From: Amyelois transitella
Taxonomy: Eukaryota > Arthropoda > Insecta > Lepidoptera > Pyralidae
Reading direction: 5' to 3'
DNA length: 64,000 nt
Assembly (NCBI RefSeq): GCF_032362555.1
Contig: NC_083505.1
Span: forward strand, 5,509,501 to 5,573,500
The first letter of the stretch is position 1, and every line of letters begins with the position of its first letter. The position numbers and the translations under genes were made by a program. Positions 27,216 through 55,929 of this stretch are shown one piece after another. A model generated the notes under the pieces. The model was not told where the DNA came from and did not search any database. It saw nothing but the letters and a program-made list of their open reading frames with translations.

Positions 27216-30200
27216 TCAAACTTTAAGTAGGAATATTATGCCAGAATGTGTGGCGAGGGCTAGTCGTTTGTGATGCTTCGCCGACGGACAAAACGCCATG
27301 GAACGTATTTCCGATATCGGGAAGCACTCCGGGTTTATCTCCTTGTAGTGAGTTAAGGACATTTTATATTCATTCTGGAAAGAAATATTACTTTTCAACA
27401 ATCACTTATTTATCTCTTACGGGGTAGAGCCAACAGTCTTGAAAAAACTGTAAAGCCACATCAGCTGTATGTCTTAATGATGGATATTTTTTAATGATAT
27501 ATTTATGGAAACTTAAATACCGGTACAGTTAAAACAAAAACCTTTTGCATACCATACATAAAATTACACCTCTTTTCTGGAGTGAGCAGAGACTTTCCAC
27601 ATGCCGTAGCAGGCGGATTAATTTAATCCACGTATACTTCTTTCGCATCACTTACATTCATCACTCTGTTTGTTGAAAATCTGTCGGTAAGGTACACACA
27701 AGAAGACATCCCCTGGAGAAGAGCCCGAGGTGCACCTTTTACCGCATTCCTGGATTGGGTAATTTAGGTTTTTTTACGAAGCGACTTCCTAACCTTACAA
27801 TGATAACCTAACCCTTATTGGTTTTTACTGTACAGGTTTCCTTACGTCTGTATAGATAAATATGTACCACTACACTATCTATTGTTAAATTGTGAACTGT
27901 TCTAGTACTCACGTGAAATTTGACGGATATATTAAACCACGGACTCAATTAAATTTCAGCTATTTTCATACTCCTTACACAAATAAACAATGCCGTATTA
28001 CTTACGTCAATATCGACGTCAAACTTTCGATCATCAGTTTTGCCCTTTATCTGTACCATTTGACAAACTGAAGAAGTAATATGTCATCGAAAAATCCTAC
28101 TCAAAACTTTACTTAGATTTATTAATTCTATGATTTAATAACAATAATATTTCCCAGTAAAAGTTTCGAGGGTTCAGACGGGAGTCGCTTCGGGTAAAAA
28201 CCTGACTTACCCATTTCAGAATCACAATCGAAAGGGGCACCCCGGGCTCCACTCCAAAGAGGTCAGAATGAAACCAGAAGAAGCAGGAGACAGGAGGAAG
28301 TAGGTAACTTTAGAAACTTACCTGATCTGTAAGCTTGTTGATCAATTTGAATTCTATCCCGTACTTCGTCACCGCGTCTTCGTACGTCAGCGGCTCAGGC
28401 GTAACCTCCTTTTTATTTTCGGAATGTTTTCTTTTTTTCCCTAAACGTTTCAAGCTGATCCACGCCACCGGCTGTAACAAAATAATAAATGGTAGGTTAG
28501 TTTTCTTAATCTAAATATTTACTAATTTATCTGTCTATAAATGGGTGACATACATTCATAAAATCACGCCTCTTTCCCGGAGGGTAGGCAGTGACTACAT
28601 CTTTCCACTTGCCACGATCTCTGCATACTTCCTTCGCTTCATCCACATTCATAACTCTCTTCATGCAAGCTGGGCGGTTTCGGGTACTCTGGACCTGACC
28701 CTTTGCCAGGACGTCCTTAATTTGATTAAGATACGTTTGTCTAGGCCTTCCCACTCCGACCTTTCCCTCCATACTCTTCTTGTATATCTGCTTAGTCAAC
28801 CTGCTATCATTCATCCTCTCCAAATGGGTGTGAGTAGAATTAAAGGAAACTTGAGGACTTCCTTTAGGCGATAGGCTAGCCACCTTTTTGAATCTCAATT
28901 TTTCCGCTAAGCAACAGAGCGAGCTTATTAGTTCTGTCTGCCTAGTAAGGAATAAAGACGTGATATATTTAGGTAAGTAGAGAACTGCTTATTGACTTTG
29001 AATCGAGGATGGTGCGCGTGAACCAGTCTGAGGTGACCATCAGCGTGCAGTGTCCAATATCGAGAGATGGAGACACATCCCAGATTTGTCAAATTTGTTG
29101 GCCAGTAATTTTGTTGAAGACGGATAAGATTTGCATTGTGGATTGGCGAAAAACTGGTATGAATAGTTTCGCGCAGGCCAAGTTGTGGGTAAAAGCTAAA
29201 AGATAAATAAAAAGATAAGTGACCTGTTTCTTGACATCGGATCGAGTTTGGTGAGCTCGAACCAGCCTCACGAAAGGCGCCATGTACGTGGCCATCAGAG
29301 CGCAGTGATTGCAACCGCAGCAACACTGCGCGGGCCCTATACGCCGCCCTAAGCACCAGTACTCCAATTCGTTAGCCGATAGATTTGCTGTGGACATAAT
29401 GTTATGTTAATCTCTTTCTTTTCTATGAGATATTGAATGAAAGAAGAAAAGAGATAGAAAGTCTAACTTTGAACGTGGCCTTAGCGCGCACTCATGTATT
29501 CTAGCAGGAACGTCGCGCCAAAGCGACACGAATGCCACGATGTCGCGACGTCTACTCGTATCAGAAAAATGTGAAATTGCAAAATCATATTTTCTAAAAT
29601 TACTAAGATTTAAAAAATAAAATAGGAGGGCCAGGCGGGCAGGAAGGCGGCGGCGTGGCTGGCGAGGTGCGAGCGCTCAATGTAAAGCTATCTATATGGT
29701 GACTGACTGATGACGTCCTCCCCGGCGAAGCAGGCGGAGGGCCAGGCGGGCAGGAAGGCGGCGGCGTGGCTGGCGAGGTGCGAGCGCTCAATGTAAAGCT
29801 ATCTATATGGTGACTGACTGATGACGTCCTCCCCGGCGAAGCAGGCGGAGGGCCAGGCGGGCAGGAAGGCGGCGGCGTGGCTGGCGAGGTGCGAGCGCTC
29901 AATGTAAAGCTATCTATATGGTGACTGACTGATGACGTCCTCCCCGGCGAAGCAGGCGGAGGGCCAGGCGGGCAGGAAGGCGGCGGCGTGGCTGGCGAGG
30001 TGCGAGCGCTCAATGTAAAGCTATCTATATGGTGACTGACTGATGACGTCCTCCCCGGCGAAGCAGGCGGAGGGCCAGGCGGGCAGGAAGGCGGCGGCGT
30101 GGCTGGCGAGGTGCGAGCGCTCAATGTAAAGCTATCTATATGGTGACTGACTGATGACGTCCTCCCCGGCGAAGCAGGCGGAGGGCCAGGCGGGCAGGAA

Positions 30201-33200
30201 GGCGGCGGCGTGGCTGGCGAGGTGCGAGCGCTCAATGTAAAGCTATCTATATGGTGACTGACTGATGACGTCCTCCCCGGCGAAGCAGGCGGAGGGCCAG
30301 GCGGGCAGGAAGGCGGCGGCGTGGCTGGCGAGGTGCGAGCGCTCAATGTAAAGCTATCTATATGGTGACTGACTGATGACGTCCTCCCCGGCGAAGCAGG
30401 CGGAGGGCCAGGCGGGCAGGAAGGCGGCGGCGTGGCTGGCGAGGTGCGAGCGCTCAATGTAAAGCTATCTATATGGTGACTGACTGATGACGTCCTCCCC
30501 GGCGAAGCAGGCGGAGGGCCAGGCGGGCAGGAAGGCGGCGGCGTGGCTGGCGAGGTGCGAGCGCTCAATGTAAAGCTATCTATATGGTGACTGACTGATG
30601 ACGTCCTCCCCGGCGAAGCAGGCGGAGGGCCAGGCGGGCAGGAAGGCGGCGGCGTGGCTGGCGAGGTGCGAGCGCTCAATGTAAAGCTATCTATATGGTG
30701 ACTGACTGATGACGTCCTCCCCGGCGAAGCAGGCGGAGGGCCAGGCGGGCAGGAAGGCGGCGGCGTGGCTGGCGAGGTGCGAGCGCTCAATGTAAAGCTA
30801 TCTATATGGTGACTGACTGATGACGTCCTCCCCGGCGAAGCAGGCGGAGGGCCAGGCGGGCAGGAAGGCGGCGGCGTGGCTGGCGAGGTGCGAGCGCTCA
30901 ATGTAAAGCTATCTATATGGTGACTGACTGATGACGTCCTCCCCGGCGAAGCAGGCGGAGGGCCAGGCGGGCAGGAAGGCGGCGGCGTGGCTGGCGAGGT
31001 GCGAGCGCAGGCGCGCGCAGTGCTGGGCGCCGCTGGCGGTGAGCGCGCTGCCGGTGGCGGACGCCGTGCTGACGGCGCCCACGCGGTCGTCGCGCGCCAC
31101 GGGGAACGAGCTCACGTCTGCAAATAGTGTGACTCATTGAAGTGCAAGTTCGACACAGAGCGAGCAATATAGGAAAGCTGTTCAGTTAGAGCTGGTTCCC
31201 ATATGTTGGGTGCGAATTTTAGTCGGATGTTCCAGTAGCAGAACATTTTATATGAAGCTATTTAAACATGACGGAATCCGATTTTGTTTAAGAGACACGA
31301 GAATTGTCGTCAAGACATATTTTTGTCGGATATTGGAACCGATAAACCTATCACCATTTCACCCGTGCGCTCGTCTACCAGTGTAACCGACAACGATCAT
31401 TAATTGAAAATGTGTACAGTGGAGCCGTTATCCAAATATAATCTAGATCCGACAGACGACTAATGGGAATTATACAGTTCCCTATAAATGATTCACTGAC
31501 TTTGCTAAGCTTATGATACGGCATGACTAATTTATGTTTATTACGTAAATTTCGATCAGTTGTGGTCCAAACTTTTTGGAAAAGAGTAGGTACCTCTTTT
31601 TTCCAAAAAGTTTGAGTAGGTTTTTCCTAACATACATTATAATTTTAAAAATGTACTTCGACGCTACTATTTCCTTAAACAGTTGTGATAACGAGTCTCT
31701 TGAACCTTAACCGTATATTGCGCGTAATGTCCTTTTCTGAATTATAAAAATAGTTTGTATATCAACCGCGTTACCCCAAAAAAGTAAACCATATGATACT
31801 CGTAACAAGCTAATAACTGAAATAAAAAAGCCTATCTGTAAAAAATATCCTGGCACTTGGCAGATTTCGATGTTATGCGGGTTGATGTTTATAATAATGA
31901 TCGTTAACATGATTCGAAACATACATGATCAAAAATAAAGGTACGTTACGTGTGCATTGTGTACCTGTACTTTTTATAAATTTTCAAAATACCTAATATT
32001 GGTTGACTGGAAGAGATCCCTTAATGGGATAAGTCCGCCTTTGTTTATTTTGTCTTACTGTATTTTTGTGTTTTTTCGTATGTACAAACAAACAAACAAA
32101 TACCTATACAAATCCAAGACAGACAAGAAACCATAATAGCAGATATAACATCACGGAGCAATAGATATAAACTGTGTATTTGTTCATATTGAACGCACAT
32201 CACTCCGGAAAGCAATATCAAAAACTATACAATATAAATATTTTCTTGCTATATTTACTGGCTGATAAGTATTTTAACAAATAAAAATATGACAGGTATT
32301 TCTGGCGGTCAACTAAAAAGATAATAGTGAGAAGACCAAAATTCATTTTCTATTTTGAAATTTTGATGCATATTATAAAAAAAAATGAAATAGTAATTAT
32401 AACTCTACATACCTGTAATACATCCATTATGTACTCTTTCCTCGTTAAATGGATAAAAAATATCTACGTTGTTTTCTTGTGACTTCAATAAAGGCGACTC
32501 AGTATTTAAATCATAATAAGCAGTTGTTCCATCGGAATATCCCACAATAACTGTTCCATGGCCTTTTTGCTGAAATTTAAAAAGGAAATGTTTGTTCATA
32601 ATAAATAACTGATTTTAAACTTTCGCGTTGTATTATACTACTTATACATATGGTGACCACAGATCATCGTAACATGATTTGAAACGTCCAAGATAAAATA
32701 AAGGTACTACTTCTAAGTAACATATTTTTCTACTAATTTCACTTACCATTGACCAGCAAATGGACGTGGCCTGATATTTTTGCCTTTGTAATTTAGTGGA
32801 AAATCTCAGTTGGGCTACTGGTTCTAATTCGTAGAATATTGTTTCACTGGAAAATAAAATAATAACAACATTATATATATCATCTTAATTTTATAGCTTA
32901 CTTTTTTCATAATTTAAAAATACATATTTCTTTGTTCAATGCGACTTGCTCATTTGAGAAAAGAGTAAAAGAAAAGAGTCATTATTTTTAAGATTTTAAT
33001 GTCATCAGCAATATAATTCGACATTCGATCACTTATATAGAAAAAAAATCGATTAAATCTATTCTTCGGCCGCCAGAAAAATTATCAAAATTATACTTTT
33101 CATTGTGTTTCTTTTCTCAGCACTTCTGAAAGATTTCTTTTCAAATAGGCAGAATGCATATTCCATTTCTCACGTCTATTCATTCATATATATTTTCTGT

Positions 33201-36200
33201 AAATTATTAACAAACAATATGAAGAAACAATTCATAAAAAGTACCTTGTAAGAGTGGAAGGATACGGCACCGACAATATATACGCGGTTCCGTTGGAGCA
33301 GGCGACGGCCAGCAGCCCCAGGCGCACGCAGCCGGCCGCGCCCGCGAGCTCGGCGCGCGCGCCCGACGGGCACCAGTCCATGGCCCACACCGTGCCGAAA
33401 TGTAACACCAGCCCAAATACCAATTTTGGCACCGTTCTTACATGAAAACAGGTTGATTGTGATGGTTCAAATAAATACTACGACACAAAAACGCTACTAA
33501 ACTTAACCGTTTACTTGAATGGCCAGAATCGTGTGAGTTGAACTGTTAGTTAGTATCATCGTTCATCAGGCAGTATTTATGTAAAAGTCGTCAAGAAGTT
33601 TCATTCGATTTGGGTTTTGTATTATTTTCTACCAACCGACATTAAGTAGCGCAAAAAATTAAACGTTTAGAATTTACTTTGGATAACACATTTTTCAAAA
33701 AAATCTTTATCAAATCACTTACTTTTGAAAATCGCCAAAATCCCAGATCTGTATAAGTGTGGGATGTTCCGGCAATTCGTCGACGTTGTACTGCGGCGTG
33801 TCGGGCCCCGCGTGGCACGCCGCGGCCAGCAGGTTGCGCGCCGAGTGCGCGGCCACGGACACGTGCGACGGCACCCACGACAGGCGCTGTATGCTGTACC
33901 CGACGAATATTGTCGTTTTATCTGAAATTTCATACATTCCTCCATCAATGTGATCACGTCAATATCCCTTGCGGGGTAGAGCCTGCAGTGTTTACTGACT
34001 GATATGAAGGCTATGTTCAGCTGATAGACTTAATGATAGAATTGAGATTCAAATAGTGATAGGTTGCTAGCCCATCGCCTAAAAGAAGAATCTCCTAACA
34101 CTTAGTGGCTTTTACGACATCCATGGGAAAGAGATGGAGTGGTCCTATTCTTTTCAATATTGGTGCCGGGAACCACACAGCACTGAAGTTTCAATATAAA
34201 AAAATATATAATAATAATAAATATATATAAATTCACATGTAAAATTACACAATGTATTAACTTCGAAGTTCGAGACTTATTCACCTTAACCACTTACGAA
34301 TCGTAACTTAATGTGTTTTTCTGAAGCAAATTACAGTTACCTTGTATTAGGAAATAAGCATAATAGTAAAGTGAAAAAGCACAGCCTTAATCACTGGCTT
34401 TTTTGAAAGACATTTGAAATGTTGCTACAATATTCCGTACTTACTCTAGGGGTGGGCTAAGAGAGAATTTCGCGGAAATGGAAATTAACGGGTTTTTTCT
34501 TCTTACACAGCTGATTTCTAGTAGTCTATTAATTAATCTGCGGACGGACAGATGGATATGGGGAAACTATATAAGTTCTTATTGCAAAGGACTCACACAC
34601 GGTGTGATACACACTGAATTACAACATTCAACTCATGAGTTACTGCAATACAAACCTTTATCAGTGACGGCAGTCCAACGGTCATAAGTTGACCACTTAT
34701 CATGAGAAAACACTTGACAAGACTTTTCCAAAGGCGGCAGAATTTTCAACAGTTTGTCCTCCGGTACTGCCTTGTAATTACATTCGGTCCATTGGGGAAA
34801 AAGGGTTTCAGTAGTCAGGAAGAAATCGGCGCTGTAAAATTAAAGTACTGTAAATTATTTATTTATAACATAGCATTCATATATGTTTCTTTGACACATG
34901 ACATAAATTTATAATTTGTTCCCACGCTTCTTCTTCACTTGCTCTTTGAAAGTGGTAATAGAAAGAGATAGTGTCTCGTTACTGATTAAACATGAGGAAA
35001 TATGAGAGAGATTCTATCCTACTTTTTACTAACATTATAATTGCGAAAGTTTGGAAGGATGTGTGGATGTGTGCGTTTGTTACTCATACGCAAAAACTAT
35101 TGAACGAATTTTCATGAAACTTTTCAATGTTATCGTTTAAACTTTAAAAGAACATAATAAGTAACAATTTAAAGAGATTTAAGGCTGACGAAATCGCGAG
35201 CAACAGCTATTAAATTATATTCAGACTTCTGCGTAAATTGCTCAAATTATATACTTACGTGTCCTTGACATTTTTTGAAAAATACTTTTTTAAATCTGAA
35301 ACCACAAATGGTATTCTTGGAATCCTAGGTGGAGAATCTGAAAAAAACGACATGTCATTCTTATTTATCCTACAACAATATTATGAAACATCAAACAATT
35401 GACTATAGCACTAAACTAAATTACCCGCTCAGTCAAGAGTTTGATTTCCATCATGACCCGGGCTCAAACCTGGGATACATCTCACAACTCATAACGTTTT
35501 CGATGTAAACTAACTAAACTTACTGTAATCGTTATGTCGCTTTTTTTCCGGCACAGAAACTTCGTCCTCAATTTCCTCATCGATGTTCTCGTCGGCCTCG
35601 GAAACGTTGTCTTCGTCATCCGAACTCGACTCCGGTTCCAGTGACAAATCAATGTCCTCGCTCTTCTTCCGACGTTTCGGACACCTGTGCACTGCCATCT
35701 CTTCTTCGACGTCTGTCGCAAATGAACATATATCGCAAACGTGCTTAAACTGAAACGGAAAAAAATATTATTGTCTACGTAGTAAAAGTTGAGGCAATAG
35801 TTGATTATTCATAACATCAATATAATTACTTAATAAATTAATAATTTTAACACAAATTTTCATACATAACCGTAGATAGCATTTTTATTATAAATTTGGA
35901 CATAGTATCAGACTATGACCAGAAATTTAAGTTGTAGCGAAAGATGTAAGTCAGTTTCAAGCAAAGCACTGTTTGCTTACAAGTTGATTCATTTACATAT
36001 TTTTTTTGTTGAAACAGTACAACAACTGGAACTCTCGATCAGGGTGAGGATACAGAGATTAACATTGTTGGAAAATTTAGTTGTAAAAGAAATCATTACT
36101 TACAAGACTGACGGTTTCTTCAATGACCATTCTGGCTCTGAAATGACAAACAGATCATTAACAACATTTCTTCTACAATTTTTTTTATAACTCAATATGT

Positions 36201-39200
36201 TGATTTTCTAAAGTTTTATTGTACAGTCTTTCCATTCCATACAGGCTAATTCATATCCAATCCATACTCATATTACAAATGATAAAACCAATTTTTTTGT
36301 TTGACCAATTTTTTATAAATATCGCACACAGATTGTTTGGAATACTGAAAGGGTAAGTTTTCATGGTGATTTACGATAAAGAAAAATGGGCGGGGCCATA
36401 TTCTACTGTACTCTTATTTGTGTCTGACTCACTTTGCGGCAGCACGCCTGCGGCCCGGCAATACAGTGATTTCCTCTTCTTTCTTCTCCTTTTCTTTCTT
36501 CATGCTCTCCTGCTCTCTCTTTTTCCCTTGGTTGAGCTCTTTCTGAGAATGCGCAACCATGTGCTGACTTTGATAGAAGCCTAAGTATTTGGTATCACAA
36601 ATGTCGCACAATAATTTAAACCTTTCAGCTTCCTGAAAAATATTTATTTTTACTAATATATAAATAGCATGTATGTAATTATTCTTGGGAACCATTGAAA
36701 TGAAATGATAGAAAATGCAAAGTACCCAGATGTCGTGAAATTTGCAAGTGATAATAAGACCAACCTGTTCCGAGAGTCCACAATTTATTGTATGAGCGAA
36801 AAAACCGATGCCCGATGATCTAGTTATACCGCACACTTTGCAAATATATCTGCCATACTGAAGATACTCTTTCAACAGTTTTGCGATAAGGTTTTGATTA
36901 AATATATCCTGTTGAAATAAATGATTTGTTTTAGAGATTAACCAGCAGCGAGCCTTATAAAAGCATTGGGATAAAATTTTAAAATTGCATAGAAGGGAAT
37001 GAAAATTCGAATAATCATGAGTCACTTATATTAGTTAAAACTTGAGTTTCTTTTGTAAAAAAACTTCTCAATACTGAAATTAAAATAAAACTCACAATAG
37101 GTTCGTCACCAACGACCCAGGCCACATTGTAATGTTTGTCAACAGCATGCTTTTTCCATTCACCATATTTTACTTTTTCTTGACACATAGCGCACTCATA
37201 AAAACCTGAAAACCAAAACTTATTTTAACTTCAATGCATTTCAAGAAATAAGTTTCAGAACTCAAATAAAAACGCCTTTTATTCTCTGCAATGTTGTTCT
37301 TCTTTCGTAACCTTTGCAGGGGAACCTAACCTATATTAGATCATATGATTACATACACATCCCGTTGCCTAAATGTGCAGGTTTCCTCACGATGTTTTCC
37401 CTCACCGTAAGAGCATAGGTTAGTTATCAAACTAATGTACATAACTTCGAAAATAGTCATTGGTACATGGCCATAATAATACAAGTAGGTACTGTTAAAA
37501 TCTTTAAAAAAAATACTTTTTTCTACTGTATATTGAATGGGGTACACATTCAATTGCATCACAATATCCCATAGATAATAATGTTAAACCTTCATCGTTT
37601 TGATTTCAATTACGAACACTCTTGGCCATTGTACTGTGACAAGTAAATTCAAAATAAGCTACTTCTCACTCTTCTTTCATCAGCTGTGTCATGTATTATT
37701 GTATCATAGATTTAATCTACAAGAAATAAAGTAACGTACGTGTTCACTTCACTCTCTGATTTCACTTATTATAATTAACTAGCTGTGCCCGCGACTTCGT
37801 CCGCGTGGAATAGTTATTTTGGGCATCATTTAAGCAAGGAGAAATAATTTTCCCCGTTTTTTTTCACATTTTCTATTATTTCTTCGCTCCTAATAGTTGC
37901 AGCGTGATGATAAATAGCCTTAAGCCTTCCCCGATAAATGGTCTATTAAAGAAAAAAATAATTTTTCAATTCGAACCAGTAGTTCCTGAGATTAGCGCGT
38001 TCAAACAAACAAACACACGCTTCAGCTTTATAATATTAGAATAGATAATTAATTTAAAACCGTCACCTTCTTGCGCCAGCTCTGTCGCTTCACTAAATGG
38101 AGGATCCATTTTGTGAATGGAATTCGATGCGCAAGAGTCGATATGTTTCCGATAAAGCGTAACATCGTCGCTCTTATATCCGCACTTAAAACAATCCAAC
38201 TCTTGAATATGGGCGATGACAGCTCGTAAACGATTCTCTCTATGGTCATTACCTTTCTGGAAATTTTATCATAATATTATACCGTTTTTTTACACTTACT
38301 GACAGAAAATAGATGAATGAATTAAGGTAGTATTAAATGTACAACAAGCTTGCGTGTCGCATAGATGAATACTTACTACGGACGCTTGCTTGTCTTTCCA
38401 AGCTATGTAGTTGTGCATTCTCATATGGCTCATCCACTGATTGATCCGAAGTTTCCGCCGGCACACCCCGCAAATTATTGCTTCGTCATCTGGCTTATCT
38501 TGTTTCGGGCTTGCTTCCTGTTTCACAATTGATTTATTCTAACAATGAAAATAATAGATAACAAGATATTTCATTAGACGCATCTTATCACATAGGAAAG
38601 TCTGTAAGAACACACGTCTTTACCCTAAGGGTTTTAGACGGATAAAGTCGTGCATCATCTTTACATACGTTCGTTGACTCTCTGGGCGAGCGGCCGCAAG
38701 GCACCGCCTCGAATTTTGCATTACAGTAGTACCGTAATCGTAATAAGGAAAGAGCAGTTTTTGAAGTTTTTACTTCACTGAATAAGAAATGCTATTTACT
38801 GCATTGATAACTAAAGTAAGTTTGCTTTCTGAATTAATTATGCAATTTCGTGTCACTTTCACTCAAAAGCCTTATTTAAAAATTATAAAATTACCTTTTC
38901 TTTTTTCGTTTCTCGCTGCGTATTCTTTCCATTGTCTGTCTCGATTTTTTTCCCATCACAATTTGTTACATGGTACAAATACGGCTTTGGGTATTTCCGA
39001 ATCAAACCACACTTAGAGCACTTCAAACAACCGGCTTTTCTGGAAATTTCTTTCAGGTGATCCAACCATATCTGCTTATCTTCAAAATTCTGTCCAAACA
39101 AATCTTAGTTAATTGCAGTCATAAATAATTAGTATATAAGAATAAGAAGAATAATTTGAATGTCATGCAGCTTACCGGCGCTTTTTCGCCTTCTTTCCAT

Positions 39201-42200
39201 GCCCGGTAGTTATGTTTCAATGAAATATGGTCAAACCATTCAATAGAATCTACATCTTCTTCGCACACTGCGCATTTGTAAATAGCTTTTACGGCCGTTG
39301 CGGGTTTATCTGCAGATTGTTCAGTTTCAGCGCTTGATTCATTGGCATTCTGTAACATAAAATTGAATAAATGGAAAATATTTTTTTAAATGACAAGCTA
39401 CTCAGTAAAATATCTTAACATGCCTAACTATGAAATATTCTTCAATCTTTTTCTTCCATCTCCCATTCCATCTGAAAATCTCTAGTAGGTCCTCACATCT
39501 CAAGCCACGAGCACATATTTGATCATGATCCTGAATTGGGTAAGTCTGTCTTACATGAAACAATTCCCATCTGACCTTCTCATGACCTAACTCATATTAT
39601 ATCATGGGAACATATACAGTTGCCTGCATATAAAGATGAATAGAAATGCCAAAAACGCGAAAACATTTCAGTAGTTATTTTTTGTTTGCTACACTTATTT
39701 AGACTGTTTAATACGCCACTTTTTCTTGTGCGAAGCTTCGCATTACACTCTACAAAAAATTACGAATACTTACTTTTATATTACAAGTCTCAATATGCAT
39801 CAGATATTTTTTTATAGATTTAGCTGTATATTTCTTAAGTAAACCGCACTTGGCACAAATAAGGTGACCATATTTTTTTACTATATTTAATAGATGGCTA
39901 TTTACTTCATTTTCATCATCAATTTTCTGAAAAGTAAAAATTATATTATTTTTAGCATTGTGTGAAAGCATTGTGAATTCATATTATTTCTTTTTAATTT
40001 TTAAACTATAAAAAGTTCTTAATGTTTAAACGATTGCCATAAGAAATCGCATCGGTAACCATCGCATCAGTTTATAGTACACTAAATGAGGTAAAAATTA
40101 AAACAAATGGTTTAATTCGTGATAAGGTTGGAGAGTAGGCTGAAACATTGGATGCCAAAAAAAGCTTGCCAAAACAGTTCTTACCAATGGAGAATCTCCA
40201 TCCTTCCAGGCAAGATATTGGTGCTCCTTGGATATGTGATCGATCCAATTCACGTCAGACACTTCAAGCTGGCAGACGCCACATTTACATATTGAATTTG
40301 TTGGGGTTGGCTTTTCGTTATCGAGCGTGAATGTTGATATCTATAAAAATGTACAATGATATGTAAAAGAGCATAAAACAAAATATAAAAAATAGCCACT
40401 TTAAATTTTTGGTGTTCTAGTCTTTACTCCAGAAAGATCTTTTAGACGAAAATAAAAATTTAAAACAAGATAAAATTACCTTTTTTAAGTAACATTTCTT
40501 TACATGCGCTAGGAATTTTGCCAATTTGACATATTCAAATCCACAAAAAGTACATATAAGACTTCCTTTGGTTTGTAATTTATTTTTAATTTTTTTCATT
40601 AATAACAAATTATCAAAATCCTGAAAAAGACATCATCATTTATAAATAGGAAATAATAAACCTTAGGCAAAACAAATCTCTATGCCTTACGGCATAGGCA
40701 GGACCGACAGTATCGAAGGATTTGAAGGCCACGTTCAGCTGGATGGCTTAATCATTTAAATGGAGAAACAGATTAAGACAGGTTGCTAGGCCATCGCCGA
40801 AAGGCAGAATCTCTTGTTAATGAAATGTTTAATAAACAAGCCTTCCCCTTGATAAGAATATGTGCGGATAAGAGAAAGGTTGCCATGCTATTTTATTTAT
40901 TATTTATTTATGTACAACAAGGAAAATAAGAAAAAAACTTAAAATAAAGAGAAATTCAGTATAAGGGCACTACTTATTTCTAGATAAATTTCTTCCAGCA
41001 GGCCCAGGACAGGAAAGTGTAAAGAAAGGCATTGTACATAATAATTAAGATATAAACTTTAACCTAAAACATATTATCATAAAGTAACAAATATCAAATA
41101 AATATATCAAGTCAATCATACATGAATACAATATAATATAATACAATATAAATGAATAGTGGATGCATCACGACGACAACGACAGGTAGTGTCCTCTCAC
41201 TACCCTCTTAAAACCTGATAAGGATTTACTATCACGTCTGGCGGTAAACAATTCCACAATCTGACAGCCTGGACAGAAAACGAGTGGCTGTTTGAAGCAG
41301 TACTATGCTGTGGCAATTTCACGCAGGTAAGACGGGTAAGAAGGGTTATGGAGAATGTTGTATAGGAGATTTAGAATTATGTGTATTGGACAGTAGCGGA
41401 TAGGAAGCCATTTAAGTCGTTTTCGGAATTCACAATGTTTTTTCTTTGCTACCAGACTGACATGGAAGAATTCATTAGATTTAGATATCAGAGAAAGAGA
41501 AAATATCACTTCGATCTCTTATCTATACTTACAAAATTATGACCTTCTTCCCAAGCAATATAACAATGCTCTTTCGATATGTGAGAATTCCATTCCGATT
41601 CTGCGAAAATTTGTTTACACACACCACATTTTATAATTGCGGGCTCCTCCGGATCATTCGTTATTTTTCGTTTCTGAGACAAAAACCAATAGTTTTTAAG
41701 ATATAAGTAAAAAAAATGTCGTGAAGCTGAAACAGCAAAACAGCTGAGAGTGGAACACAAAAATACAGCTGAAATTATTTAATTAAATTTTCTATTTCGC
41801 CTCAATAACAGAATATAAGTCCGCCTTCCGATTCCGCATGTATGGCCCGCTGTAGTAGTATGGTGCACCATGCAGCAATGGACATTCAATTTGATTGAGA
41901 TCTGAGTTAATTGTTAATTCTGAATTAATTGATTAATAGTGTTCACGTGATGCGGGTACAAATATACAGGCAGAAATTCTAAGAATCACATTTTTGGTTT
42001 CTTTTGGTTATTTATTCATCCCCATATTGATTTTTAGCAATATCCTTCAAGTACAGACATCGGCCATTTCATGACATCTATACTAATATTGTAATATTAA
42101 AAAGAGGTAACCATTTGCCAAATTGTGGATTTTTTAAAATTATATTGTACTACAAGAATATTTTATTAGGAGATCTATAAAAAAGTCCACGACACCATTT

Positions 42201-45200
42201 ATCTAACTTCTATAATTATATAATTATAAGGTACTTATTTCATATTTTAAAAGGTGCATTTAGAGAGCCAATTCCACAAGCATATCCTGATGATTAATCC
42301 TTATAATTAATAAATATTATAAAACAAACTTACTTTGTTTAATTTTAGAACATCAGTAGTTTCAATTACGTTGTCTTCATTAGTATTTTGTTTATTCACA
42401 AGCATATTGCCTTCTCTTTCTTTGGTTACAGTTTCCTCCTGGGATTCCTATAATGCATACATTTTTATATTATTTTCTGTGAAAATATCTGCATTCCCTA
42501 TAAAATTAGCGAATTGTTCCGGCTTTGTACTTGTAGCATTTATAGATGTAGATCTTCCTCAGAAATCCATTTTTTCAACTTTTCAAACAGGAATATAATC
42601 ATTCCCAACTTTCCAAGATTAAAAAAAAATAGAGGGAAACAATATGTAGTGATAGTGATGATATAATCTGAAGGTGAGATTAAAATTAAAATGTGTCCAA
42701 CTAACGCATCAAGCAAATAATTTAAGCTGTATTTTGATGAAGAGCTATTTTGAAGTGTTGGGCGTGTGGATCTAGATTTGAAGATGAAAATGTTATAACA
42801 AATACCTTTGATGATACCTTTTAATAGCTTTGATGTGGTTCTCAGCACTTTAGAATCCACTCCATCTATGGAGGTGTAAAAGGCGACTAAGGCGGAAAGG
42901 CTATAAACTTGGTACTCTTATTTTAGGTGATTGGCTAGCAAACTGCCACTATCTGAATTTCGATTCGATTCTATAGTAAGGGATAAAGACGTGACTGTAT
43001 GTATGTATGTTGATGAATGATCTGTTCTAGAAAATAAATTGAAAAAATAATTTGCCACTGCCATAATGTCCCAGGCAAAAACTAGTTTTAGTGTGGCATA
43101 CTCACTATTATACTTTCATCAATTATTATTAATTCAGTCAAATTTTCAGTTATCTCCTCTGAATCATTTGCTTCCTTTTCCTGTGCCGTCTTATTTTCAC
43201 TTGATATAACCGATTGCTTGTGAATTTCTGTACAAATCTGTGTATTCATCTCATTATCAGCACCTGTATTGTGGTTCAACTGCATTTCTTCACAAATACT
43301 TTTACTTTCAAAATATTCAAATTTCTGCCAGCAAATGTGATCAGTATCACATTCATGGCAATCCTCTTTTTCTTGAATGTATTCTTTCCTTTCAATATCA
43401 GAAAAACTTCCATATTCGTTATATATTTCGAACACTGTAGAAATCGGACAATTGACACTTTTGTTAGAACCAAAGTGAATATGTTCATATAAACCATCAA
43501 TATGTGTTAATTTACCAAAGTCACCACATAAACAATATTCTTGGCGTTTCGTAAGAGATGAGTCAATGCATGTTTTAATTTCAATACAAATATCTTCTGG
43601 ATTATTGATACTTTTGAATGAAATTTCCTTAATTGTACAAGGCACAGATTTTTTCACTTGATTTTTCTTTTTTTCGTATGTTTTTTTAATTTTTATTCTA
43701 TCTAATTTACAGTCATATGAGCCACCAGGCTTTTCAACACCGTGAATAAATATTTTTGATTTGACAATGCTTCCAAGTTTTGGTTTTAATATTTGTACAC
43801 CTCTATTTATAGCTCTTCTTTGATAAGCCTGCTTCAAATATTTAGCTATTTCTTGAGCCTTGTTTTCATAACCAGGTTGAAAATTTTCATTATTTAATCT
43901 ATGACATGAAAGGTCCATTTCATTTCCTGCAGTCTTAGATGTTAGTAACATTCCGATCGAACCAACTTTTGCCGAACTTTTTATGAAACTATGATTATTA
44001 CACAGCGTTTCAGTAGAAATATTACCTTTTACTTTATCCCTTACATTTTCGATGACTTTGAGATCATTTCCTGAATTTGGTAAATTTTCGAAATCTTCCA
44101 TCATGTTATAATTTTTTCCACAATTGTAAATAAAATTATTATTGTCGACTGCAGTAACAATATTTCTTTTGGGTCCTTCACTAAATTCTTGGGCATAATC
44201 TTTATAAGGACAGTCTAATAATGACATTGATTTTTTTTCAAAAATAATGTTTTTGTTTGTTGGTTTACCACTAGGTGAAATGTTACCTAAATTCTTTGTA
44301 TTTTTGAAATCAAACATTTTATCATGTGATATTAATAGATTTTGATTGAAAACGACTTTTGAATTTTGTGGTGTAGGGATATTAAAAACAGAATCATCTA
44401 TCTGCTTCGCAATATTTTCCCTGTTTACTTCTATCGGGTGTGTTGCTTTAGTATTAGTAACAGTACTAATATTGCTTTTCGATTCAATAACATCGTCTCT
44501 CTCAACCCTCATTACGCATGTTTCGTATAATTGTTTGTTTTCTTTGTCAGATATAGGTGCATTTGTTATATCTGGAGGTGCTAATGGAGTAGAAGTTAAA
44601 ATCTCCGTTTCATGTAACATATGATCAAGTTCCATATCACTTGTTTCTTCACATTCAATATGATTAGAAGCATTTAAATCAGCAAAATTATTTTGGTTTA
44701 CTTCTTGTAAATTGCAAAGGTGTAAATTAAGATTAATAAGCTTTTCATGTTGGTCTATACTGGTTATTTCTAATTTACTGCTATTATTTTTTTCATCAAG
44801 TGATTCACAAAGAAAGTTTATGTTATTTTCTTGTGTATTGACAATATTTTTACTCAAGTTTGAAATATTTGGCAACTGTGGGGATAGGCTTATGAAAACA
44901 TCTTTTTCTCTCCTTTCATTATGCAGTTCTTTTCCACTGTTAAAAACTGTACCATTAGTACGATTTATTTCATTATCAAGAATATGAATATCTTCAGTTG
45001 GCAAAACAGGAATTACAATTTCTGGTTCCTGTAAAATGACAGTTTCCATAGAAACTTCATTGACATTTTTTATTAATTCAGAAGCAGATGAAGTAGCAAT
45101 TATATAATGTGGTTCCTGCGTTTGAATAAAATTTTGATCAATAAATGACTGAATTCCATCCAAAACAATATCCGCAGTATTTGTGAATTCCGGGTTCACT

Positions 45201-46160
45201 GACGACGAAATAGGAATCATTAAATCGTCTGGAATACTTCTGGCCTTGACACTTTCACTTTCTATCTTGTGGTTTATGCTGTTTGTATCTGAATCATATA
45301 TTATTTGGATAGTCTGTGAATTGTCTTGTTTTGGTATATGAATTGACTGAATACTATCATTTGGATTGAGTAATCCATAGGGTTCATATTCTTCTTTCCT
45401 ACATTTCGATTTTGCCATCTCACCATCATCCAATTTTAATTTGCTACATATGATGTCATTTGAATTAGTTTGTTTGTTTAGTACACAGTTTTCGTGAACT
45501 GCAAGTGGTATTCGCATATGATTCCTTACATTTTTATTGCAAATTATTGAAGGGTTTGTTTCTTTCAATACTCTACTGTCAGATTTATATTTGGAACTCA
45601 ATACTATGTCTCTTTGTTTGTCTTGTTGCACCTCAAAATTAACATGTTCAAGGTTCGAAACCTTGCTGTAAATTTCATTTGTGGTAATTGATTCTGATTG
45701 TTGTTCATTAGAAATCAAATCTAATTGATTAGCTATCTCATCCTCTCCTTCTTTAGCATCAACCACTAAAGGTAAAAATGTAGGACTTAAAAATATTGAA
45801 TCATTCATTAACTTTGCAGTTTCTAAAATAGAAGATTCTTCATTATTTTTACTTGATTCAGATACATTATTTTCTATTCCTTCAGGATTTGAATATGAAG
45901 AATTATTTACACAGAATTTATCTGAAAAAATAAAAAATTTATATGATTATGTTACAAAATGAAGGTAAGCAATTAAGAATTAAATTTAGATATTAACTAT
46001 TGAATAATTTAAACTTACTTTTTTTTCTCTTAACTTGCTTCTGTTCTTGAACATTATGTGTTATATTACTAATGTCAATCCCTAGTTTTTCAAGAACATT
46101 TGGTGATAACACAAATACCTCAGCTTCATCTTTGTTAGTCGTTGTTTGCGTGTTGTTCAT
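27216..46160 (-). CDS. TFIIIC110/GTF3C2-like WD40 protein with N-terminal zinc-finger array (26 exons)
   Basis: Assembled exons, 5' to 3' on the minus strand: 46160-46019, 45921-43106, 42447-42334, 41673-41533, 40620-40480, 40340-40185, 39926-39774, 39349-39176, 39089-38895, 38538-38377, 38256-38067, 37205-37096, 36908-36765, 36632-36433, 36137-36104, 35749-35524, 35337-35259, 34831-34656, 33921-33723, 33436-33245, 32846-32747, 32569-32413, 31117-30929, 29387-29224, 28471-28322, 27374-27216. All junctions are GT-AG and phase-consistent. Total 6663 nt, about 2220 aa. Residues 1-986 are low-complexity, 1025-1650 hold zinc-finger modules, 1650-1700 are acidic and 1700-2220 are WD40-like. Segments such as WAMDWCPSGAR and RLGLLAVACSNGTAYILSVP match the GTF3C2 subunit of TFIIIC, which helps place Pol III on tRNA genes in the nucleus. 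Exon 23's donor is the least certain point. The zinc-finger half is unlike vertebrate GTF3C2 (about 900 aa). Confidence 0.8.
27411..27480 (+). mobile_element. SINE-like fragment
   Basis: Contains 'ctcttacggggtagagccaa' and 'cagtcttgaaaaaactgtaa', then an 'agctgtatgtcttaatga' block. This order is shared with better copies at 33960-34160 and 46732-46935. It lies in the last intron of the large gene. Confidence 0.55.
27560..27860. repeat. Two adjacent dispersed-repeat fragments in an intron
   Basis: About 27560-27670 resembles the retrotransposon tail at 28557 ('ttacacctcttttctggagt', 'tccacatgccgtagc', 'cttcttt.gcatcacttaca'). About 27700-27860 has 'gagaagagcccgaggtgcac', 'tttttttacgaagcgacttc' and 'tttactgtacaggtttcctt', resembling the repeat family at 57925-58150 and 37295-37500. 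Both are non-coding relics. Confidence 0.45.
28527..28898 (-). mobile_element. Non-LTR retrotransposon C-terminal fragment
   Basis: The minus strand has an open frame of about 120 codons containing RMNDSRLTKQIYKKSMEGK, then VGVGRPRQTYLNQI. A 'RMNDxRLxK...G.R..GRPR..W/Y...I' stretch is characteristic of the end of RTE-type and related reverse-transcriptase ORFs in insects. There is no polymerase domain, so it is 5'-truncated. It sits in the intron between exons 24 and 25 of the large gene, in the same sense. Shorter copies lie at 14891-14972 and about 11930-12000. Confidence 0.6.
28990..29062 (-). pseudogene. Decayed partial duplicate of exon 24 of the TFIIIC110-like gene
   Basis: Within the intron downstream of exon 24, the minus strand carries a diverged copy of that exon's end. 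Exon 24 reads CALMATYM... and then VRAHQTRSDVKKQ. The copy reads VHAHHPRFKVNKQ, preceded by a 'cactgcacgctgatggtcac' stretch equivalent to exon 24 'cactgcgctctgatggccac'. An internal deletion of about 15-20 nt shifts the frame between these halves, and the donor has decayed ('aagcag|ttctct' in place of 'aaacag|gtcact'). It is therefore a dead exon. Alignment was made by eye. Confidence 0.6.
29625..31008. repeat. 111-bp tandem repeat, about 12.5 copies
   Basis: The word 'atgtaaagctatctatatgg' recurs every 111 bp, at 29680, 29791, 29902 and so on to 30901, giving 12 complete periods plus a partial. By eye the copies look identical. Each unit, read on the minus strand, holds the end of coding exon 23 (SHLASHAAAFLPAW, PSACFAGEDVI), the probable donor 'atca|gtcagt', then intron sequence including an in-frame TAG. 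The array replicates an exon-intron junction. Only the copy nearest 31008 is attached to the rest of exon 23. A 432-codon frame through the array (SARTSPATPPPSCPPGPPPA...) is a by-product of the 111-nt period being divisible by three. Confidence 0.95.
31118..32412. other. Intron 22 of the TFIIIC110-like gene with retroelement relics
   Basis: Contains an imperfect inverted repeat at 31568-31614, a jockey-type fragment at 31690-31922 and a dispersed repeat at about 31999-32110 ('gttgactggaagagatccct', 'aatgggataagtccgcctt', 'ttttgtcttactgta'). The last is repeated near 63776-63850. Nothing else is recognised. Confidence 0.6.
31690..31922 (-). mobile_element. Non-LTR retrotransposon (jockey/CR1-type) RT fragment
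   Basis: The minus-strand frame ends in SYGLLFWGNAVDIQTIFIIQ followed by KRTLRAIYG. The pattern 'YG...WG......IF.LQKR..R.I' lies just downstream of the polymerase motifs in jockey, CR1 and related non-LTR elements. Only this small piece is intact. It lies in an intron of the large gene. Confidence 0.6.
33960..34180 (+). mobile_element. SINE-like element
   Basis: A well-preserved copy of a family found about eight times here. Ordered words are 'atatcccttgcggggtagag', 'gaaggctatgttcagctgat', 'gattcaaatagtgataggtt', 'gctagcccatcgcctaaaag', 'ggcttttacgacatccatgg' and 'gagatggagtggtcctattc'. It lies in the intron between exons 18 and 19 of the large gene. No coding capacity. Ends are approximate. 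Confidence 0.65.
35030..35210 (+). mobile_element. Helitron-like short element in an intron
   Basis: Starts 'tactaacattataattgcga', continues 'ggatgtgtggatgtgtgcgt', 'aaaaactattgaacgaattt' and ends 'cgaaatcgcgagcaacagct' followed by ATTA rather than CTAGT. The word order is that of lepidopteran non-autonomous Helitrons with a damaged end. Confidence 0.5.
37295..37500. repeat. Dispersed lepidopteran repeat in intron 11
   Basis: Carries 'cctttgcaggggaacctaac', 'ctatattagatcatatgatt', 'aggtttcctcacgatgtttt' and 'ccctcaccgtaagagca', then 'tcattggtacatggc'. The same order is found near 62270-62435, and parts near 57925-58150 and 39470-39620. The family is common in moth genomes. Confidence 0.55.
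37778..38045 (-). mobile_element. Non-autonomous Helitron, both ends present
   Basis: On the minus strand it begins TCTATTCTAATATTATAAAG, runs through 'gtgtttgtttgtttgaacg' and 'ctcaggaactactggttcga', and ends 'cgaagtcgcgggcacag' with CTAGT. On the plus strand that end is 'actagctgtgcccgcgactt'. Insertion is between A and T, the usual Helitron target, with no duplication. The element sits 21 bp from the donor of exon 11 (38067), wholly inside intron 11 and in the gene's own sense. Confidence 0.75.
39470..39640. repeat. Dispersed repeat fragment in intron 7
   Basis: Includes 'atctcccattccatctgaaa', 'atcctgaattgggtaagtct' and 'aacaattcccatctgacctt', then 'catgacctaac'. It is a weaker member of the family near 62270-62435 and 57925-58150. 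Confidence 0.4.
40683..41420. mobile_element. SINE fragment plus long non-coding retroelement relic
   Basis: About 40683-40815 matches the SINE-like family ('ccttacggcataggcaggac', 'caggttgctaggccatcgcc'). From about 40890 an AT-rich segment starting 'atttattatttatttatgta' 'caacaaggaaaataag' leads to 'cctgataaggatttactatc', 'ggtaaacaattccacaatct' and 'gacagcctggacagaaaacg', a set of words I associate with 3' ends of lepidopteran LINEs. It lies in the intron between exons 4 and 5. Confidence 0.4.
42840..42995 (-). mobile_element. SINE-like element, reverse orientation
   Basis: Complementary to the SINE at 33960: 'taaaaggcgactaaggcgga', 'ggctataaacttggtactct', 'taggtgattggctagcaaac' and 'tagtaagggataaagacgtg', followed by a TATG run. 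It lies in the intron between exons 2 and 3 of the large gene. Confidence 0.6.
43106..45921 (-). other. Exon 2 of the TFIIIC110-like gene: long low-complexity region
   Basis: A single 2816-nt exon, residues 48-986, bounded by acceptor 'ttttttcag' at 45922 and donor 'ata|gtgagt' at 43105. The translation is rich in Asn, Ser, Glu, Ile and Lys with no recognisable fold. Its last third becomes basic (IKKTYEKKKNQVKKS) and has scattered Cys pairs (EYCLCGDFG with YEHIHFG; CHECDTDHICWQ) that might bind zinc but match no family. An internal ATG at 45808 opens the largest frame, but the true start is ATG 46160 in exon 1 (MNNTQTTTNKDEAEVFVL), because exon 1 joins in phase. Frames on the opposite strand are shadows. 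Confidence 0.75.
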
Positions 46161-49049: not shown

Positions 49050-50329
49050 ATGTACCTGTAGCGGGAGCGATGATTCGGCTCGACCGCCACCAAATGGAAG
49101 ATCTTCCGCCAGGCTAGGTGTTATGCCTGGGGAACCGCGGCTCCAACGATGACGACAAGGGGTCTTCCCAAACTCCTAAGGAGGAGTCGGAGTGAATGGT
49201 CAGGGCTTTTGGCCCTCTTCATTGGCTTCTTCGCTGCCTACAGCTGTAGGCAGGTCAATGGGGTGGCCGTGGCGGCCTGGGTCTTCTTCTTCTTTCTTCT
49301 GGGAGTTCCCATCGGCGGCGGCGTCGTCACTGGGCGACGACGTCTGCCGCAAGGCAGCCAGGTGAGGGCTTCACCCGACGGTCCGGAGGGCGGGCGTGGA
49401 GAGGCGCGATGCCGCGCAGGTGGCGATGTGATGATGCGTCCGCCCTCTCGAACATCTTCGTGGCCAGCCTGGCCACAAAGTCGTCTAGGCCCTCCCACTT
49501 CAAGTCCCTGAGGATCGTCGAGTTCCTCACGTAACGCGGAGCGCCGACGACTGCTCTGAGACTGGGGTTCTCTTGAGCTCTGAGTTTTCTTCTGTTGGTC
49601 TCAGAACAGTAGGCGTACCACGCCGGGGCCGCGTACGTGAGGCGGGATCTGACATATGTTCGGTAAGATCCAGAGCTTCGTCCTCAGGGGGAGGCTGGAG
49701 GAGAGGACTGCGTGAAGCTTCCCCCTGGCTGCCTTGGTCTTCGCCACGACGTCTCCCACGTGCTTCTTGAAAATGAGACGCCGGTCGATGGTCACTTCCA
49801 GATACTTGACACGCGGCCGCCACGGCACCGATTCGCCGAGCAGTAGCAGTGGAGGCGGATGGGGTCTTGTCCCCGTAACGATTGCTTGAGTCTTGCCGAC
49901 GTTTACCGAGAGCCTCCATTTGGAGAGCCAGCCCGGCAGAGCATCAAGAGTGGGCTGCAGCCTCTTGGCGGCGTACAGCGGGCGCATGGATGACGCGTAG
50001 TACGCCGCATCCTCAGCGTACAGCGCCAGCTCCACCTGGCCAACGGCAGGGATGTCGTCGGTAAACGCGGCGTAGCAGGCCGGGGACAAGCAGCTTCCCT
50101 GTGGCACTCCCGCGCGCACAGGGCGCACGGAGAGAACTTGCTCAGCAGCGCGCGATCGGCCGAAATCCGTTTGGTCTTCGGTGATCCTTTCCCGGTTTGG
50201 GCAGCATAATGGTTCTTGCATTTTTCCAGGATGAAGGAAAGTGACCCGAGCGCAGTATACCATTAAAGAGGCGCGTGATCGCCGCGATTGCTCGCGGCGG
50301 GAGATGGCGTAGCGCCTGGTTGGTGACAA
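49050..50329 (-). pseudogene. Jockey-type non-LTR retrotransposon, reverse transcriptase relic
   Basis: The minus strand encodes VRAGVPQGSCLSPACYAAFT, then VELALYAEDAAYYASS, then LSVNVGKTQAIVTGTR and VKYLEVTIDRRLIFKKHV, in the order of reverse transcriptase motifs 4-7. The usual catalytic YADD reads YAED. Frame breaks follow near 49600, after which NSTILRDLKWEGLDDFVARL marks the RT C-terminus at about 49500. The 5' ORF and most of the polymerase are missing. The 3' tail near 49050-49140 ('cctgtagcgggagcgatgat', 'tcggctcgaccgccaccaaa') recurs alone at 54758-54838. Its GC-rich codons contrast with the surroundings. Confidence 0.8.
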
Positions 50330-50535
50330 CGATGTTGTGTCGGAGGTTGTATATATAGCTCCAATCCTTGAAATCGCGATTTAGTTTATTCGCTGCTATT
50401 GGTTGAGCGCGTCAATTTCTTCGCGATGATTGACAGTTGTTGTGTGATTTGATGTTGTGACAAGTGGCGTAGAGATGTCGCCACATACCTTTTAATTTAC
50501 AATTTTTTTAATATATAGTTACCTAATTATAGAAA

Positions 50536-53775: not shown

Positions 53776-55929
53776 GCTTGTTTCATTTAAGTTATATAAA
53801 TAGTACCTTCTTATTAATTTCTATTAAATTTTTGCTTGGAAGTGCAGAACACTTAGTGTAAAACGATAGAAATCGACAATGACTACATTACTCAATTGCC
53901 ATTGGTCCAAGCAGACTACATTTACGTAGCGCTCTGAAACTATCCTATGGACTTTATAGGAAAAGTACATGCATAGGGCTCTTGCCATAAGCATATACTT
54001 TTCGTGCATACCTAAATAAACCGGGATACCAACATGGCGAACTAGAGATGTTCTTTAGTCGATAATATTTTATTGATGGATGAGTGACTTGAGATTGTTC
54101 ATTTCCTATCACAGTTGTAACTACAAAGTTTAAAATACGTCTGTGATTTGGTTCTACATCGGGAATCCTTACTACGGTCCAACAATATTTTATCTCTCAC
54201 CTATGCCATTCTGATAATTAAAAAGAAAATTAATATATTTGTGATGAAATTTGGTAAGGATGTATTTAAATACCCGAGTTCAAATTAAGGTTTCTCTTTA
54301 TGTAAATAAATCAATCCCCCAAAGGGCTGCAATTAGGGATGTACCATGCCCGAGAACATTGCCAGGGACTGAGAATTTTGCTGGAATTGCTGCCGGCAAC
54401 GTTCCCAAAATAGGATTTCATTCTACTAATGTAAGTCAAATATGTTGTATTCACAAATGTTTATGTGCGCCTTGATACTGAAATTATTCATTATATACTT
54501 AGGTATAATAAGTCCGAAAATAATTATAATGTGCAAATGTTTGTCGGATGACTCCGACATTCACGTTTAAAGGGTTAAAAGATAAATGATATCAATACCT
54601 AAGAGATAAATAATAACAATTGTTCGTGTCTTCTTTGAAATATTTTTGTTTTTTTGAATCTTTTAGACTGCGTTTTGACTAAATTATATAAACTTTATGA
54701 TAAGCGATTGCCAAAAGAGTTGTAAAATCGATTGCACTTTCGTGGCCCTTGAAGAGGCCTGTAGCGGGAGCCATGATTCGGGCTCGACCGCCACCAAAGA
54801 GAAGATCCGCCAGGCAAGGTGTCTGGAAAACCGCGGCACAGATGAATATATTTTGTTCCTGCCCGGATATTTTCTATGCCAATCATTTATAGCCATTCCC
54901 TTCGCCAAGATTCGTTCCTTGGTGAACTAAAACGAGAAAAAATACTTTAACATAACTTAGATCCTAATTTATCGATAAGATGCTATGTTCGACACTAGAA
55001 CCCGTGTTTATGTTTTCGATGTGAATGAAATATTGAGAATATTACAAGTTTCTTTAGTTCACAACTAAGAACATTAAAAGTAGTAGGTTTTAAAATATAT
55101 TGTTGTAAATGCACTTTATGATAAACAATAATTTATTTAACAAATATTAACCCCTTACCGGTAAAAGGTTAGATTCAACCTATTTTTGCTTTGGCATACA
55201 CTATAGAACACGTCATCTTATAGTTTATTTTCGATTAATAAGCAAACTCAAAATATTTATTGCATAACTGTGTAAATATATAGATGGAAATACATTTAAC
55301 AGTATCAACAGTTTGTTCTTTCAGGCATGCAATATTTTTTAGTATTTAAAATACTAACGTATATAAAATAATGCAAGCTTCGTACAAAGTCGAAAAACAC
55401 GGGAAAACGTAAAAAAAAACGTTATAATTTAGTTAGTTAGACGACAACTTCTCACAAACAAAGCTGTAATGTTCGATGGCGACAGCGGCAGCAAAAGAAG
55501 TAGGTACATCGAAGGCAATGAAGAGTGTGCTGATAAAAGAGTGTAAATATATTTTCGCCCATAAAACCACTGTTGTGAGAAAGAGACAGATATATCATTA
55601 TAATTTCTGAGTCAAGTTGAAGAATTACGGCATTTACATAATTATGATGATTCTTCATGGATTATTACTAAACGGTTGAAATAAACCGTTCGTTCATTTA
55701 GTTCAATGCCCATCCCTACCAGCAGCTTCTGTCAAAGTTGTTTTTACTTTATGTTTATTTAAGTTCTGATTGAATTAATATTTTGCCCGAATGAGCGACA
55801 AATGAAAGAAGATAGTAACTTTCAATAAATGTGCGTATTAAGTTACTTTTTACCTATTTATTACGAAACTCAAGTGAAATATTGGTGCTAAATTATACAG
55901 GCTTTCAACAAAAACGTTAACCGTTCACA
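53776..55929. other. Intergenic between RpL41 and the BARD1-like gene
   Basis: AT-rich with no gene seen. A fragment of the retrotransposon 3' end lies at 54758-54838. Just before the BARD1-like start, 'ctaaattatacag' at 55900 resembles a 3' splice site, so a short 5'UTR intron is possible. Confidence 0.5.
54758..54838 (-). mobile_element. Fragment of the jockey-like element's 3' end
   Basis: 'ctgtagcgggagccatgatt', 'cgggctcgaccgccaccaaa', 'gaagatccgccaggcaaggt' and 'aaaccgcgg' repeat, with small changes, the tail at 49055-49140 of the retrotransposon relic. It is a solitary piece. Confidence 0.55.

Follow-up and report, generated by a model that had tools for sequence, protein, structure and literature searches.

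TFIIIC reads the A and B boxes and is also found at TFIIIC-only and domain-border sites, the choice of which is unexplained. Among the described proteins closest to the gene reported here are its TFIIIC110 subunit (GTF3C2 in human, PDB 8cli, 8clj and 8cll; tau91/Tfc6 in yeast), likeness to which lies in the WD40 part, and the vertebrate proteins ZNF512 and ZNF512B, which recruit SUV39H and in which long linkers between finger pairs reportedly allow the reading of non-consecutive motifs. According to PMC11602157, the eight fingers of ZNF512B are arranged as four pairs, in each of which a typical C2H2 finger follows an atypical C2HC one, and the protein binds DNA in electrophoretic mobility shift assays and oligomerises through its fingers; the same paper cites Ma et al. 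(2024) for the presence of ZNF512 and ZNF512B at pericentric heterochromatin in vertebrates. Here we analyze a 64-kb stretch of the genome of the moth Amyelois transitella (the window, C1:5509501-5573500), in which a single reading frame on the minus strand, running from 46160 to 27216, joins an array of zinc fingers to a TFIIIC110-like WD40 part. We consider it probable that this is one gene, encoding the moth TFIIIC110, i.e. the GTF3C2/tau91 subunit of the B-box-binding tau-B, with the finger array as an added tether to DNA or chromatin.

Sequence comparison identifies the WD40 part as related to TFIIIC110/GTF3C2. A phmmer search of the PDB with the C-terminal 510 residues returned human GTF3C2 (8cli_C) with E=3.3e-17, aligning query residues 129-344 with residues 398-628 of the chain, and this was the sole strong match among five, the next having E=0.099. 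The match bears out the GTF3C2-like identity that an earlier note on this DNA had assigned to the C-terminal WD40 part. No Pfam WD40 model exceeded its cut-off in the C-terminal part (best WD40_CDC20-Fz, E=0.0035, 17.1 bits against a cut-off of 200), and none of the 150 places listed in a PF00400 search of the genome falls in the window. When the genome (327 Mb, 33 contigs) was searched with the C-terminal part, all 21 matches at E<=0.01 lay inside this gene, of which ten coincided with exons and 11 with copies of a 111-bp repeat. Hence, it is the sole TFIIIC110 locus found, and no second one was detected in the 327-Mb genome at that threshold.

The gene model, rebuilt from open frames, splice sites and phases, comprises 25 exons, 6492 nt and 2163 aa, and the last codon is its only in-frame stop. 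All 24 introns are GT-AG; 23 donors score 6.0-10.5, against a median of 3 and a 90th percentile of 6.0 for background GT sites, and the weakest splice site is the exon 23 donor (3.0). In leave-one-out codon usage the chosen frame is the best one in 22 of the 25 exons, the exceptions being exons 15, 20 and 23. Exon 1 (46019..46160) carries the start codon ATG at 46160 and joins exon 2 in phase 1 through a donor scoring 8.5. Exon 2 (43106..45921), open over 2816 nt, encodes a region of low complexity that is rich in S and N, is acidic (net -47) and has no Pfam match at E<=0.1, and exon 3 (42334..42447) is a linker placed by the frame chain and its codon score. Introns 2 and 3 (658 and 660 nt, within 41674..43105, minus strand) separate the disordered exon 2, the 114-nt exon 3 and the first finger. 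Past the stop, at a distance of 61-81 nt (27155-27135), there are three AATAAA words and one ATTAAA. The earlier note had proposed the same start and stop, which we reproduce exactly, and its disordered exon of about 940 residues upstream of the WD40 part is present (938 aa, coding stretch 45919-43106). The one-frame chain that it had read by eye also stands, the continuity from fingers to WD40 part being borne out by the chain itself, the codon scores and the bridge test described below; its exact counts (26 exons spanning 6663 nt and encoding about 2220 aa) differ from ours. The 171-nt difference probably corresponds to one exon, which could not be placed: the intron 32412-31118 offers ten candidates, none of them WD40-like by eye.

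Twelve Cys/His modules precede the WD40 part, in agreement with the dozen or so announced in the earlier note, although what had been described there simply as a finger array turns out to alternate C2H2 and C2HC modules over long linkers rather than forming a generic run. Ten of the modules form five tandem exon pairs (exons 4-13), C2H2 then C2HC. The C2H2 modules, A1 to A5, occupy exons 4 (41533..41673), 6 (40185..40340), 8 (39176..39349), 10 (38377..38538) and 12 (37096..37205); they follow the pattern C-x2-C-x11-H-x3-4-H, and C, C, W, H, H, A and W are invariant in their alignment. The C2HC modules, B1 to B5, follow C-x2-C-G...H-x3-C, with C, C, G, H and C invariant in the alignment, and occupy exons 5 (40480..40620), 7 (39774..39926), 9 (38895..39089), 11 (38067..38256) and 13 (36765..36908). 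Two further modules are supplied by exon 14 (36433..36632), placed by the frame chain and the listing of Cys/His modules and containing C2H2 finger 11 with a K/E-rich tail, and by exon 16. Hidden Markov models (HMM) built in jackknife fashion from the other four A modules recovered A1-A5 with domain E values of 7e-13, 4e-14, 4e-14, 1e-8 and 5e-6, matches to the reversed protein being no better than 0.8. AlphaFold models of single exons, for which the sister exons served as the alignment, gave a beta-beta-alpha finger for the A module of exon 6 (mean pLDDT, the predicted local distance difference test, 79, and 91-92 over residues 21-40) and a helix followed by a beta-beta-alpha finger for the B module of exon 7 (mean pLDDT 85). 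With the module limits used here, each of the five pairs has a gap of 32-34 residues from A to B, and 12-42 residues lie between B and the next module; all but one of the ten array exons begin in phase 0, the exception beginning in phase 1. Given the alternating types, the constant A-to-B gap and the near-uniform phase, the array arose by tandem duplication of a two-exon cassette, the copies of which have diverged to 26-45% identity to the first member. Net charges are +3, +5, +5, 0 and +2 for the B fingers, which are thus mostly basic, and 0, -2, -4, +5 and +1 for the A fingers. Gaps between modules span 12-53 aa, and the 7-residue linkers of a canonical C2H2 array (TGEKP) are absent. These long gaps rule out DNA reading of the canonical TGEKP type.

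The closest parallel to the finger pairs is found in ZNF512 and ZNF512B (PF21276, PF21367), which likewise pair atypical C2HC with typical C2H2 fingers. Fold alignment to these proteins (PDB 2ctd, 2gqj) extends over 48 residues and includes the helix before the C2HC finger, and the alternation of C2HC and C2H2 fingers, a hallmark of ZNF512/ZNF512B, is present in the moth array. Several results weigh against this resemblance. Leave-one-out profile probabilities ran from 10 (without B5-F11) to 79, and from 32 to 76 in a second comparison. In hmmsearch with two pair profiles ZNF512 appeared at E=5.4 (17th of 20) and E=4.4 (19th of 23), neither being significant, and several other finger proteins ranked above it; a phmmer search with B5-F11, the pair closest to ZNF512, did not return ZNF512 among its matches, and the A finger alone was no more ZNF512-like than its shuffles. 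The Pfam models ZNF512_C2HC and ZNF512_zf-C2H2 gave no match to the finger region at E<=1 nor to any of the five pairs at E<=10, a test in which the HMMER filters drop most matches above 0.1, and a genome search with PF21276 was likewise empty at E<=1. Moreover, the gap between the fingers of a pair, counted alike, is 13-43 residues in the moth, as opposed to 6-8 in human ZNF512-type proteins. Since sequence and Pfam searches fail to single out ZNF512, we term the array ZNF512-like and do not count it as a member of the family; a likeness in fold and in profile-profile comparison is supported but not proven. It may be convergent, an explanation to which we give somewhat less than an even chance and which would overlay any reading of the gene rather than exclude it: any C2HC finger with a preceding helix would then score in this manner. 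Yet shuffles that keep Cys and His rarely match the ZNF512-type profile (2/300, 1/200 and 0/200; column shuffles 0/100), the entire pair aligns in register, and finger types alternate alike in ZNF512B and in the moth array. Linkage in cattle, noticed after the fact, also speaks against convergence: Table 5 of PMC9602073 lists ZNF512 and GTF3C2 within a single BTA11 segment (71.6-72.7 Mb), separated by ten genes. We estimate the odds of this coincidence at roughly one in a thousand, but the observation is post hoc and no test. It is tempting, if rather doubtful, to suppose that TFIIIC110 and the heterochromatin-initiating fingers of ZNF512 were once one protein, or a linked pair that became fused in insects, the moth array reading spaced DNA motifs and the vertebrate halves persisting as separate linked genes.

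The basic character of most B fingers and the gaps of 12-53 residues, which would fit spaced contacts of the type reported for ZNF512, lead us to prefer, as the function of the array, an extra tether to DNA or chromatin, protein binding being the main alternative. In such a scheme the propeller would place the protein next to TFIIIC90 and TFIIIC220 within tau-B. Human TFIIIC110 touches DNA just past the B box, and an array attached here would sit near the downstream side of that box. Joined through the acidic linker, the long-linker array would provide a second set of contacts, spaced apart, with DNA or chromatin, its fingers might self-associate as those of ZNF512B do, and it could tether TFIIIC to the flanks of tRNA genes, to TFIIIC-only (extra TFIIIC, ETC, or insulator) sites or to repeats. 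An alternative that we judge possible, at about one chance in three, likewise assumes one gene but regards its architecture as ordinary and conserved, all arthropod or invertebrate TFIIIC110 proteins carrying fingers that have gone unremarked in databases and that serve as protein-protein modules. The divergence among the repeats implies an old array, a protein interface would account for the conservation of the W and AW positions, and no second copy was found in the genome, all of which would agree with such conservation or such a role; the mostly basic B fingers, on the other hand, rather suit nucleic acid.

Whether fingers and propeller belong to one protein depends on the interval between exons 14 and 18, where the frame chain passes through exon 15 (36104..36137), a 34-nt microexon whose codon score is not best in the chosen frame, exon 16 (35524..35749), which holds on one exon the atypical finger 12 (C-x2-C-x12-H-x-C) and the acidic linker, and exon 17 (35259..35337). 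In a bridge test, the longest open, phase-matched chain from exon 14 to exon 18 (1601 nt) was compared with that in 500 dinucleotide shuffles, the outer sites being fixed and the thresholds having been chosen with the chain already known. With donors of at least 6.0 and acceptors of at least 5.0 the longest chain consisted of exons 15, 16 and 17 (339 nt), a length reached in 1/500 shuffles, and the same chain was obtained at 7.0/5.5 (0/500). Two adjacent genes, namely a finger protein of exons 1-14 with a stop at 36431 and an ordinary TFIIIC110 starting near 35.4 kb, would nevertheless explain several observations that count against a single gene. That stop lies directly past the exon 14 donor on read-through; the interval contains AATAAA words (36220, 35889) as well as TATA-like and TCAGT ones; an in-frame ATG (35353..35351, minus strand) directly before exon 17 could serve to start a form with the WD40 part only, and M1642 lies within exon 16. 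At the lax thresholds of 4.5/4.0 the longest chain, of 456 nt, is within chance (33/500, with at least 339 nt in 139/500; an earlier run gave 14/200 and 35/200), and at 7.0/6.0 there is no real chain. We nonetheless deem two genes unlikely. The splice sites of exons 15 and 16 are good, the acceptors scoring 6.0 and 6.1 and both donors 7.0, and the phases match; exon 16, bearing finger and acidic linker, codes well (score 0.30). The largest gap between 36.43 and 34.83 kb is 427 nt, words of the kinds listed are common in AT-rich DNA, the ATG at 35353 falls in a polypyrimidine tract, and the bridge is hardly ever reached in shuffles at the stricter thresholds. The union of fingers and propeller in one protein is thus supported, though short of proven.

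Downstream of the bridge, exon 18 (34656..34831) encodes the region N-terminal to the propeller. The match to GTF3C2 covers exons 19 (33723..33921), 20 (33245..33436; VWAMDWCPSG...RLGLLAVACSNGT), 21 (32747..32846) and 22 (32413..32569), ending near the last residues of exon 22. Exon 23 (30936..31117), placed by frame and acceptor, is a probable WD40 blade, exon 24 (28322..28471) is placed by the frame chain and splice scores, and exon 25 (27216..27374) probably encodes the last blade and contains the stop codon; these last three exons are less certain than the rest of the chain, and exons 22-25 alone (215 aa) gave no relevant phmmer match up to E<=10. Of a seven-bladed propeller, exons 19-22 account for the part aligned with GTF3C2, and no exon was recognised for the blades expected to follow; comparison with human GTF3C2 suggests that the moth model lacks about two blades between exons 22 and 23, which loss of a segment, an exon that escaped recognition or a faulty assembly could explain. 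The 111-bp unit, repeated in a tandem array of 12.5 copies (29625..31008, 100% match), is built from the last part of exon 23 together with the sequence that follows it. The exon 23 donor (GAC|GTCATC) is uncertain because the exon ends at the edge of these identical copies. The copies inspected contain, besides this 3' exon end, a stop in the frame of the gene, and the unit, being a multiple of 3, leaves a spurious open frame of 502 aa. Two intronic open stretches, 31600..31930 and 28530..28988 (minus strand), resemble by eye remnants of the reverse transcriptase of a long interspersed nuclear element; Pfam detected no reverse transcriptase in the frames 31710-31928 and 28530-28988. That the locus is a decaying, non-functional copy, with two blades lost and transposon remnants and the 111-bp array in its 3' part, is highly improbable, since the weak exon 23 donor, the intron 32412-31118 devoid of a recognised blade exon and the long identical array must be set against 6492 nt without an internal stop, mostly good frame scores and a genome in which no other TFIIIC110 copy was found, TFIIIC110 being expected to be needed.

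Elsewhere in the window, a single open frame of 536 aa (55921..57531, plus strand) encodes what is, by its domains, a BARD1-like protein: it matches ankyrin repeats (E 5.6e-23) and BRCT (7.4e-6), and its start gives a sub-threshold match to RING (E 0.01). Upstream of the TFIIIC110 gene, a GC-rich retroelement remnant contains a reverse-transcriptase fragment (49604..50380, minus strand; PF00078, E 1.2e-8).

A TFIIIC subunit bearing a finger array would provide a direct means of choosing or holding TFIIIC-only and border sites, giving the tRNA-gene machinery a second grip on chromatin. If the link to ZNF512 is true, RNA polymerase III machinery would be joined to a heterochromatin family through a testable history of gene fusion or fission, and a common origin would mean that TFIIIC was wired directly to a module targeting repeats or heterochromatin. 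We found no description of a TFIIIC110 with a finger array in the PubMed Central papers surveyed, a result that does not extend to subscription papers or database entries. The human GTF3C2 chain in the PDB has 925 aa, against 2163 aa and 12 Cys/His modules in the moth protein; human GTF3C2 is not known to have such a finger array, and it shares with the moth protein an acidic stretch before the propeller. ZNF512 and ZNF512B, unlike the moth protein, show no fusion to a propeller, and the finger arrays of CTCF-like insulator proteins differ from it in their short canonical linkers and in having no WD40 part. Within tau-B itself, TFIIIC90 resembles the moth protein in combining zinc fingers with a WD40 domain (PMC11811891), but its fingers are two, C-terminal and bound to TFIIIC220-WH1, whereas those of the moth protein form an N-terminal array.
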